A DNA stretch of 64,000 nt from Oscillibacter valericigenes (GTDB lineage Bacteria; Bacillota; Clostridia; Oscillospirales; Oscillospiraceae), in the NCBI RefSeq assembly GCF_021531435.1, contig NZ_JAFBIS010000011.1, positions 1 through 64,000 of the forward strand, in the 5' to 3' direction. The notes under the pieces were generated by a model. That model saw only the letters and a list, made by a program, of their open reading frames with translations. It was not told the origin of the DNA and made no database searches. A program made the translations under genes and the position numbers. This document shows positions 24,925 to 35,384 of this stretch, piece by piece (positions within the stretch are counted from its first letter, which is position 1; each line of letters begins with the position of its first letter).

Positions 24925-25488
24925 ATGAAAAAGTGGGTTTGCCAGGTTTGCGGCTATGTTTGGGAAGGCGAGACTCCTCCCGAGAAGTGCCCCCAGTGCG
25001 GTGTTCCCGCCTCTAAGTTCACCGAGCAGAAGGGCGAGCTGAGCTGGGCTGCCGAGCACGTTGTGGGCGTGGGCAAGTCTTTCGGCGCCGATGTGCCCGA
25101 GGAGGTCCAGAAGGAGATCATCGACGGCCTGAACGCCAACTTCATGGGCGAGTGCACCGAGGTCGGTATGTATCTGGCCATGGCCCGTGTCGCTCACCGC
25201 GAGGGCTATCCCGAGATCGGTGAGTATTGGCGCCGCGCCGCTCTGGAAGAGGCTGAGCACGCTGCCAAGTTCGCCGAGCTGCTGGGCGACGTCGTGACTG
25301 ACTCCACCAAGAAGAACCTGGAGATGCGCGTCGAGGCCGAGAACGGCGCCACCGCCGGCAAGTTCGAGCTGGCAAAGCTGGCCAAGAAGTACAACCTGGA
25401 CGCTATCCATGACACCGTCCATGAGATGGCCCGCGACGAGGCCCGTCACGGCAAAGCTTTCGCCGGCCTGCTGAAGCGTTACTTCTGA
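24925..25488 (+). CDS. Rubrerythrin with N-terminal rubredoxin domain (reverse rubrerythrin)
   Basis: 187 residues. A rubredoxin-like FeCys4 site comes first (Cys6, Cys9, Cys22, Cys25), then a four-helix ferritin-like diiron domain with [23 protein letters not shown] and [12 protein letters not shown] supplying the Glu and His ligands. Standard rubrerythrins have the opposite domain order. The family reduces hydrogen peroxide, and in reverse rubrerythrins of Clostridia also oxygen, using NADH-derived electrons. The last 17 codons appear to be contributed by the integrated element: a diverged copy of the same 3' end lies at 35,321-35,384. Confidence 0.93.
25424..25439 (+). repeat. Left attachment core (attL)
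   Basis: AGATGGCCCGCGACGA inside the rubrerythrin reading frame. Similarity to the right copy continues for 62 bases with four mismatches. On the right copy it starts exactly at this core, which is why the crossover is placed here. Confidence 0.7.
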
Positions 25489-25522
25489 TCGGCTGAAATC
25501 CCTGATACAGTAAGGATTTTCC

Positions 25523-25556
25523 AAGAGGAGATCACGAAAGTGGTCTCCTCTTTTTT
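25523..25556 (+). terminator. Terminator after rubrerythrin (element copy)
   Basis: AAGAGGAGATCAC, a GAAA loop and GTGGTCTCCTCTTTTTT. By position it belongs to the element and replaces the displaced original terminator at 35410-35441. Confidence 0.9.
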
Positions 25557-25584
25557 GTGTCCTCCGCCGTTGGAATGGAATTTC

Positions 25585-25780
25585 TGTGGAAGTCTATCTC
25601 TGTTTTCCTTCTAAAAATGCCAGATGTGGAAGTCAGCAATGTGGATGTCTGTATTATAAACTTTTAGGTGTTCAGGAAACCAGATGTTTGAACTAAAATA
25701 TACATCTTCGCACATCTTTTATCGCCTTTGAAGAACAACGAACAAGTGCGGAACAACTTTGAACTTAAACCGCACATCTT
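25585..25780. repeat. Short repeats at the left end of the element
   Basis: TGTGGAAGT occurs at 25585-25593 and 25625-25633, with TGTGGATGT at 25640-25648. The same nonamer recurs at the right end (35184-35192), as expected of arm-type integrase sites. Two copies of CGCACATCTT lie at 25709-25718 and 25771-25780. The stretch 25557-25819 holds no credible gene. Confidence 0.45.
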
Positions 25781-25819
25781 CCAAGAGAAATAAAGAAAAA
25801 GAATATGAATTATCTTTAT

Positions 25820-25858
25820 GGGGTATCCAGCAATATTGGATACCCCTTTTGCTATAAT
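25820..25858 (+). promoter_or_regulatory. Hairpin followed by an extended -10 promoter
   Basis: GGGGTATCCA (25820-25829) pairs with TGGATACCCC (25837-25846) and is followed by TTTT, like a terminator. TGC-TATAAT (25850-25858) follows at once. The promoter probably drives the gene at 25969, with a 110-base leader. Confidence 0.55.
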
Positions 25859-34225: not shown

Positions 34226-34233
34226 CACCAAAT
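34226..34233. repeat. IS target-site duplication, right copy
   Basis: CACCAAAT, the partner of 32715-32722. On the minus strand it encodes part of Asp-Leu-Val of the integrase. Confidence 0.88.
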
Positions 34234-35170
34234 CCGTAGAGGGGATTTTCCTGCCGTCCAGATCATCAATGAACCGTGTTTTCTGCTTCCGCAATTCAGC
34301 AAACTGCTTTTCGTCTTCCGCCCTCTGTTGGAACTTCTTTTTCAAATGCTCTTGAAGCGTGGGACAAAGGAAGATCGTCCGTTTGGAATTGCGGGTTTTG
34401 GGAGAAACTAATTTGATAAGGCCATCCTGATACTGCATTTGCCTGTCGATGATAATTGTGCCGTTCTCCAAATCGACATTTTCCCATTTCAGGCCAAAGG
34501 CTTCATTGATACGCAGACCGCAATAGCGTCCCAGCAGGTAAGCGGTCTCTGCGTTTGTGCCTTTGAAATAATCATCCAGAAGAACAAGTTCCTCACGGCT
34601 GAACGCCACAATATCGGTATCATCCTCTGTCTTCATCTTTGGCATTTTGATGCGGGTGTCTTTATTTACACAGAGTTTGTTGTAGGTATCTACTTCCAGA
34701 TAATTGCGGGAATAGGCTTGCCCGAAGATCAGGTAAAACATTTTCAAAAAGGCTTCGGTGTATTGATACGAAAAACCTTCCACATAGTAAAGATCGGAGA
34801 GATAATCATTGACCTCCGCCGCCGTAATTTCATCCACGAACCGCTTGCCGTATTTCGCACAAAGGTGATTATTCCAAAGGCTGTCCTGCTTTTGTTTGGT
34901 TCGGTAGGCTCTGTCTTTCCTGCCGTTTCCACAGTATTCCTCATACACTTCTTTGACGGTTTTCCTGCTAATTTGTTTTGCTTTTGGAGTTTGCTCTTCT
35001 TTGATGGCTTCGGCTCTTGCGAGGATAGCAGACCGCTTTGTTTTCATTGGGTTCCCGTTTGCGTCCCGAACTCTTTTTACATCTTTTCTTTTGCCATTGA
35101 CTGAAACTGTATAGCGAAAGCCCCATCCGCCGCCGTCAAGTTGATAAATACCAGTATCGTTTTGTGCCAT
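34226..35170 (-). pseudogene. int: Tyrosine integrase, N-terminal fragment interrupted by IS256
   Basis: 315 codons before the insertion. The N-terminal arm-binding domain (about 1-60; GGGWGFRYTVSVNGKRKDVK) is followed by a core-binding SAM-like domain (about 65-180). The start of the catalytic domain has Arg220 (YCGLRINEAFGLKWENVD) and the active-site Lys region SPKTRNSKRTIFL. Reading on into the IS adds only Gly-Arg-Ala before a stop. The product lacks His-x-x-Arg and Tyr, so it cannot recombine DNA. Its position and inward direction at the right end fit an integrase that recognises the rubrerythrin att site. Confidence 0.93.
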
Positions 35171-35183
35171 AACAAAGCCCTCC

Positions 35184-35320
35184 TGTGGAAGTTGATGTGG
35201 AAGATTTCCACATTGCTACGGCATTTCAGGTTGAAAACTGAATAGACAGAAACACGAAAAAAACCTTATTTTTCAAGGCTTCCCCCATAGGACGCGAAGC
35301 GGCCTGCCCGTCGGCGAGAC
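35184..35320. repeat. Right end of the element with arm-type repeats
   Basis: TGTGGAAGT (35184-35192), TGTGGAAGA (35196-35204) and an inverted TTTCCACAT (35206-35213-region) match the nonamers near the left end at 25585-25648. The rest, up to the att core at 35321, is non-coding. Confidence 0.5.
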
Positions 35321-35336
35321 AGATGGCCCGCGACGA
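35321..35336 (+). repeat. Right attachment core (attR)
   Basis: AGATGGCCCGCGACGA, identical to 25424-25439. Sequence to the left shows no rubrerythrin similarity, whereas sequence to the right does, which places the crossover in or at this core. Confidence 0.7.
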
Positions 35337-35384
35337 AGCCCGCCACGGCAAGGCTTTCGCCGGCCTGCTGAAGCGGTACTTCTA
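35337..35384 (+). pseudogene. Displaced original 3' end of the rubrerythrin gene
   Basis: With the att core it encodes [24 protein letters not shown], identical in protein to the end of the rubrerythrin at 25488. The DNA differs at synonymous third positions (GAA for GAG, CGC for CGT, AAG for AAA, CGG for CGT) and the stop is TAA instead of TGA. It has no start and is not expressed as a gene. Confidence 0.88.

Follow-up and report, generated by a model that had tools for sequence, protein, structure and literature searches.

Results

The window analysed in this work, i.e., the whole stretch of 64,000 nucleotides from Oscillibacter valericigenes, holds a complete rubrerythrin gene, the last bases of which recur farther on beside an integrase gene that is in two pieces. 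The features discussed below are, in order along the window:

24925..25488, + strand: whole rubrerythrin gene, 187 aa (open frame; RUBY_RBDX and Rubrerythrin matches)
25424..25488, + strand: left tail, taken to be the replacement rubrerythrin 3′ end, TGA stop (60/65 identical to 35321-35385)
25523..25552, + strand: terminator-like hairpin after the left tail, taken as carried by the element (similar sequence 3′ of rubrerythrin in G059, G027 and G028)
25585..25645, no strand: left putative arm sites (TGTGGAAG at 25585 and 25625; ATGTGGA at 25624 and 25639)
25969..27005, + strand: two small proteins, 166 and 165 aa, without family matches
28163..28447, - strand: small protein, weak NCBIfam match to the regulator VanU
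28974..29561, + strand: serine resolvase/invertase
29619..30932, - strand: cargo SLH-domain protein, weak transglutaminase-related match
31030..31290, + strand: helix-turn-helix regulator
31405..32376, + strand: WYL-domain regulator
32454..32720, - strand: integrase C-terminal piece (PF00589; aligns to relatives from residue 317)
32723..34225, no strand: IS256-family insertion, 1,503 bases (transposase at 32827-34047, + strand; 8-base direct repeats)
34214..35170, - strand: integrase N-terminal piece (PF00589; aligns to residues 1-317 of relatives; its frame ends inside the insertion)
35184..35213, no strand: right putative arm sites (TGTGGAAG at 35184 and 35196; ATGTGGA at 35195 and, reversed, at 35207)
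35290..35320, + strand: right end of the element (same 31 bases in Butyricicoccus L066 and L132)
35321..35385, + strand: right tail, taken as the displaced native rubrerythrin 3′ end, TAA stop (repeat match; comparison with G046)
35410..35433, + strand: native terminator-like hairpin after the right tail (similar sequence 3′ of rubrerythrin in G046; farther downstream in G028)

The duplicated tail

The two tails lie about 9.9 kb apart (9,897 bases from copy to copy) and are identical at 60 of 65 bases, whereas the best other placement of the 65-base rubrerythrin tail, over the whole window and both strands, reaches 35/65, which rules out a chance repeat as the origin of the pair. Their five differences are four synonymous codons and one stop-codon base (TGA/TAA), and each tail is followed by a hairpin of its own, which bears out the initial annotation in its description of a tail repeated with synonymous changes, another stop codon and a second terminator. 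The same annotation saw a crossover core in 16 bases shared by both ends. Similarity on the right does begin at 35321 with 16 identical bases; this shared start, however, is not supported as the crossover core, being only the left edge of the repeat, and the longest identical run between the tails (23 bases) lies deeper in, at positions -30 to -8 relative to the last sense codon. By ARAGORN, the window holds no tRNA gene.

A split integrase

The integrase gene starts 150 bases from the right tail. In alignment, its two pieces correspond to adjacent stretches of the 403-aa integrases found in two relatives (G099 and G021), and between them stands the IS256-family insertion (transposase match at E 5e-128), flanked by the 8-base direct repeats CACCAAAT at 32715-32722 and 34226-34233. 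The tyrosine integrase (PF00589) noticed earlier beside the right copy does adjoin the tail, but it is incomplete, and its splitting by the insertion had been missed. Being so split, it probably leaves the element stranded unless helped in trans, and this copy would probably be immobile now; the G099 integrase, unlike it, is an intact 403-aa open frame. The only solved structures matched by the integrase sequence at E 0.01 are those of the Int of PDB 6emy, 6emz and 6en0 (best E 5e-4), which we take to be the Tn1549 integrase; the likeness is distant, and the catalytic part (residues 171-386) alone aligns.

Concerning the other genes between the tails, protein clusters with a window member are present in 12 of 30 complete elements for the two small proteins at 25969..27005, in 17 for the resolvase and in 16 for the WYL regulator. 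No relaxase or secretion/conjugation gene was seen among the window proteins scanned, just as had been claimed, and neither relaxase nor conjugation genes are named among 25 of the 34 Pfam families for 65 element proteins. Likewise, 25 of the 98 PHROG families for element proteins name no phage structural gene; single element proteins match DNA polymerase, polymerase-exonuclease and primase families there.

A native-like joint in a relative

In G046, a relative of another species that offers the sole clean native joint among the relatives' stretches compared, rubrerythrin runs directly into sequence like window 35385-35441. Its stretch L039 matches window 23200-25489 at 1-2310 and window 35321-35441 at 2245-2365 (82% over 122 bases). 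Because the G046 rubrerythrin continues into sequence like the right flank, the right copy is regarded as the native end, now displaced, and the 3′ end of the window's whole gene, from about 25424, is taken to be supplied by the element. This agrees with what the initial annotation had expected of relatives lacking the element, namely rubrerythrin joined to sequence like that after the right copy.

The other element-free relatives have different sequence 3′ of rubrerythrin. Among the relatives' stretches compared, the right-hand terminator was found in G046 and G028 only, and the left-type terminator follows rubrerythrin in G059, G027 and G028. In G028, sequence like window 35394-35439 comes farther downstream, after pieces like 25489-25696, 29295-29572 and 30368-31360, so arranged that the stretch resembles a decayed relative of the element; G027 and G028, in which the search gave no family integrase, retain remnant pieces only. 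In G059 the element is spread over two contigs, the first with its left end, the second with a right tail and the integrase N-terminal part (this second contig being the same sequence as the Oscillibacter valericigenes An860 contig in the stretch compared); behind the right tail come first another left-type terminator and then the genes found after rubrerythrin in G038. I read this arrangement as what repeated occupation of the same site would leave. Beyond the right tail, window 35442-36610 covers the greater part of a gene judged transporter-like by eye (ORF 35614-36768); this part is missing in G028, whose sequence jumps from 35439 to 36610, and is unmatched there in G046, a difference that appears to be a separate gain or loss.

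An integrase family tied to rubrerythrin

The integrase is found at E 1e-20 or better in 4 of 86 genus genomes and at E 1e-60 or better in 7 of 297 sampled genomes of the order, the window's own included in both counts. The layout in G099, a 2-contig genome, is like that of the window, with a full rubrerythrin (match 943725-944261), 9,886 bases between tail ends, a 403-aa integrase (match 952951-953892) and a 62-base tail (954086-954147). A scan of public genomes gave at least 79 loci with related integrases, and in 60 of the 79 listed a rubrerythrin C-terminal fragment lies just upstream of the integrase, on the opposite strand; the search for similar integrases ending in rubrerythrin, suggested with the first reading of the window, thus finds them. 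Among the 65 loci that include the N-terminus of the integrase plus 250 bases or more upstream of it (tallied from the table), the fragment is present in 60 and missing in five (L083, L094, L111, L118 and L130), the 14 loci outside this set being cut by contig ends, partial in their integrases or distant (24-25% identity: L142-L144). The L094 fragment match is spurious (17.7 bits) and is left out of the 60/79 and of the pair counts, and L070 and L132 are taken as the same loci as G021 and G059. A full-length rubrerythrin lies also beyond the element in 28 of the 60 fragment-bearing loci. No rubrerythrin fragment accompanies any of the 25 other integrase-family matches of the window genome (best E 0.11; flanks of 1.5 kb where the contig allows). 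Together with the G046 joint, the 60 loci support the earlier claim that rubrerythrin serves as attachment site of a tyrosine integrase whose element brings a replacement 3′ end.

Six extra loci were also obtained, five of which were taken as already counted (L066, L075, L085, L094 and L121); the new one, from a genome not used earlier (G232), has the fragment at 101265-101453, the integrase start at 101598 and a full rubrerythrin at 152308-152844. The family integrase of G232 (C6:101598-139866) is in two parts some 37 kb apart. Complete elements measure 3.4-11 kb in 29 cases out of 30, and 2.7 kb in the one with a truncated integrase, in flanks of 10 kb that would miss larger elements; that of G232 spans some 51 kb. 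The candidate fragment/gene pair of G021 was dropped, since its pieces lie on different contigs of a MAG (C53 and C2) and belong to different rubrerythrin subtypes, possibly by misbinning.

Hosts of the integrase family belong to the Oscillospiraceae, Butyricicoccaceae and Lachnospiraceae, and related elements dock in rubrerythrin in many gut Clostridia. Between the window and Butyricicoccus pullicaecorum L066, the N-terminal part of the integrase is 87% identical over 312 columns, compared to 57% nucleotide identity for the rubrerythrin 5′ parts, which suggests transfer between families. Viral contigs gave no family integrase, and plasmids and phages gave one and two integrases, respectively, at 26-27% identity to the family. 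In L106 (7963-9812) four successive rubrerythrin 3′ fragments lie upstream of one integrase, as if several elements came and went. In L085 and L091 each of the two tails has a rubredoxin gene after it, so the carried piece may include this partner gene; with a single query, rubredoxin follows the right tail in 5/59 cases and the left tail in 2/29, which is not discriminating.

A lone gene tail could, in principle, arise by deletion, the right fragment then being the remains of a second complete rubrerythrin gene that lost its front. No result favours such a deletion. The fragment keeps the same orientation beside the integrase throughout the 60 loci, a related site without it exists (G046), and in the window genome one match covers the whole rubrerythrin, a second one covering residues 1-140 at 42%. 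The single full-length match and the family-wide pattern of fragments lead to its rejection, and its probability seems close to nil.

Codon pattern and ancestry of the tails

Over the last 17 codons, the tails of 30 pairs (the window, G099 and 28 loci, with L094 excluded) show 130 synonymous against 22 non-synonymous codon differences, when 78% of all possible single changes in the tails would be non-synonymous. In addition, left tails read EARHG in 30/30 complete pairs, with E and H presumably being residues of the di-iron site. Both tails look, by their codons, like ends of working genes.

Left tails track the 5′ part of the host's rubrerythrin (partial r 0.445) but fail to track the integrase (0.094, p 0.09), whilst right tails track both (0.48 for the rubrerythrin 5′ part; 0.156 for the integrase, p 0.004); L141, whose integrase is truncated, was left out of this test and of the 9-mer test given below. 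This ancestry counts against the replacement-tail model, since a long-carried tail should show the reverse pattern; the left tails not tracking the integrase, tails probably remain only briefly with any one element. Upstream of codon 171 the 30 pairs have fewer differences (66/360 codons, against 152/510 in the last 17), a mosaic that the simple form of the model does not predict.

Left tails resembling the host could also mean that the crossover falls near the stop codon, leaving the left gene wholly native and the right fragment as an arm of the element, and the G099 left tail does resemble that of G011, by eye, as far as some 40 bases short of its end. Decay would be expected of an untranslated arm, however, and the right fragments show, in their upstream parts, 53 synonymous against 13 non-synonymous codon differences from the left; some right fragments, besides, run for 85-115 codons in close similarity to rubrerythrin. 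I consider an arm of this kind unlikely.

Position of the crossover

The rubrerythrin fragment varies in length from 16 to 115 codons, starting 48 to 345 bases before the end, by estimates from a codon score that are too long for some loci (42 codons in the window, against 62 bases by pair comparison). Its length follows the integrase clade only roughly and varies within clades, so that one fixed crossover core is not evident. Among elements sharing the right end CCGTTTGGCT, the codon at which rubrerythrin is joined differs (L076, L081, L075/L077 and L089/L091), and the G099 tails differ at bases that are identical between the window tails. At codons 171 and 172 the wobble bases agree in 25 and 27 of 31 pairs, respectively, and those of later codons in 18-25, a tabulation that includes the spurious L094 and is not decisive for the crossover. 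The 45 bases before the estimated joint together with three after it fold with z below -2 in 15/62 cases and in 0/62 controls (RNA parameters, shuffles), and small hairpins with G-N-A loops occur near joints in 13/62, versus 2/62 controls. Given the varying fragment start, the hairpins at joints, the host-like left tails and the codon-171 mosaic, no crossover point is claimed.

Some of these traits would suit a duplication of the target at insertion, by an element carrying no tail, with copies that diverged later: a duplication might give fragments of varying length, a hairpin often stands at the joint, left tails are host-like, and duplication may apply to the tiny repeats of the genus described below, with their locus-specific flanking repeats. 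Of two such copies, however, the unselected one should gather mostly non-synonymous changes, quite the opposite of the 130 to 22 observed, and the left terminator is common to G059, G027 and G028, the right one to G046. This makes duplication very unlikely as the source of the right fragment.

Ends of the element

The 31 bases at the right end (35290..35320) have no second copy in the window genome at up to 3 mismatches. When the 320 bases after the left tail are compared to the 260 bases preceding the point where the right fragment is estimated to begin, 29 elements give 301 9-mers common to both ends, against 47.4 in shuffles and 53 versus interior stretches, and 28/29 elements have such 9-mers. 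The motifs TGTGGAAG and ATGTGGA, near both ends of the window element, look like arm sites of the integrase. Similar motifs occur 3′ of rubrerythrin in 5/28 genus loci (G059, G027, G022, G004 and, by a single match, G010; L015 dropped out of this pattern), and those of G027, G022 and G004, where no family integrase was found, may be footprints.

Tiny palindromic repeats at gene ends

In several relatives the end of an EF-G-like gene, upstream of rubrerythrin, is repeated around a palindromic spacer (L049:579-1075 in G037; also L041 and L048). In seven genus genomes searched the spacer matches 1-21 times per genome, and five times in the window genome; at the 16 places printed spacers measure 72-183 bases and lie between locus-specific direct repeats 41-103 bases long. 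A direct repeat no shorter than 40 bases, with its copies spaced by 100-500 bases, is found at 21 of 26 distinct spacer places (from 30 fetched loci, L181-L210), and by the same criterion in 1/23 integrase and 8/29 rubrerythrin control loci, at least five of these eight being genomes with the EF-G repeats. An open frame of at least 255 aa ends in the repeat at 7 of the 16 printed places, and at three of them the repeat is a tRNA-Leu-like gene; Rfam finds tRNAs in L186 and gives no match besides tRNAs in six spacer loci searched.

Discussion

The stretch between the two tails is very probably an integrative element that recombines into the 3′ part of rubrerythrin and supplies it with a replacement tail and terminator. 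Its tyrosine integrase would recombine an element site bearing the rubrerythrin 3′ part with the same part of the host gene. The left junction would then hold a whole gene again, with a 5′ part from the host and a 3′ tail and terminator from the element, whereas the host's own tail and terminator would be displaced to the right junction, next to the integrase. Circular excision, movement from host to host and action of the integrase on these very sites are steps that we infer.

The e14 element of Escherichia coli has a tyrosine integrase. In icd, e14 supplies the gene's 3′ end, with a displaced 163 bp fragment at the far end (PMC6379469), and the mechanism proposed here is of this known kind. 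The likeness lies in the insertion inside the 3′ part of a protein gene, in the replacement end and in the displaced fragment at the far end (PMC6379469); the regenerated whole gene, the displaced fragment beside the integrase (window, G099 and G232) and the uninterrupted site (G046) are all seen, although in the window copy the IS256-family insertion leaves no working integrase. Compared to e14, the rubrerythrin elements have another target, other hosts and a tail length that varies within the family, and no phage structural gene is named for them (25 of 98 PHROG families). Nor were relaxase or conjugation genes, as ICEs or IMEs would have, found among the proteins and families examined.

Replacement sequence in attP is usual for targets that are tRNA or protein genes (PMC10111431). 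Islander describes tRNA-gene islands whose target is split and then restored by island sequence, with the displaced fragment as a mark of the end (PMC4383910); the rubrerythrin elements follow the same logic in a protein-coding gene. Similarly, in the dusA islands one integrase family is tied to one conserved protein gene in many bacteria (PMC4482086), a tie like that to rubrerythrin, with the difference that those islands use the 5′ end of dusA. Rubrerythrin itself as an integration target was not found in the literature, in which papers on rubrerythrin and integrases were judged mostly by titles and the starts of abstracts.

It is tempting to place the rubrerythrin elements and the tiny palindromic repeats in one wider class, in which a hairpin-bearing end is joined near the 3′ end of a gene at a variable position, duplicating a variable tail with no fixed core, the integrase elements being self-sufficient and the 0.2-kb repeats dependent. 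Such a class is a doubtful conjecture; if true, both forms would keep re-cutting and replacing the 3′ ends of genes in gut Clostridia.

In conclusion, rubrerythrin, a conserved peroxide-defence enzyme of anaerobes, seems to be the docking site of an integrase family, so that mobile DNA would be able to exchange the enzyme's C-terminus together with the terminator. The varying length of the tail lets one ask how an integrase family shifts its target point along one gene. In practice, a rubrerythrin fragment next to an integrase is a marker for finding such elements, which offer a set of target gene and integrase for anaerobes with few genetic tools.
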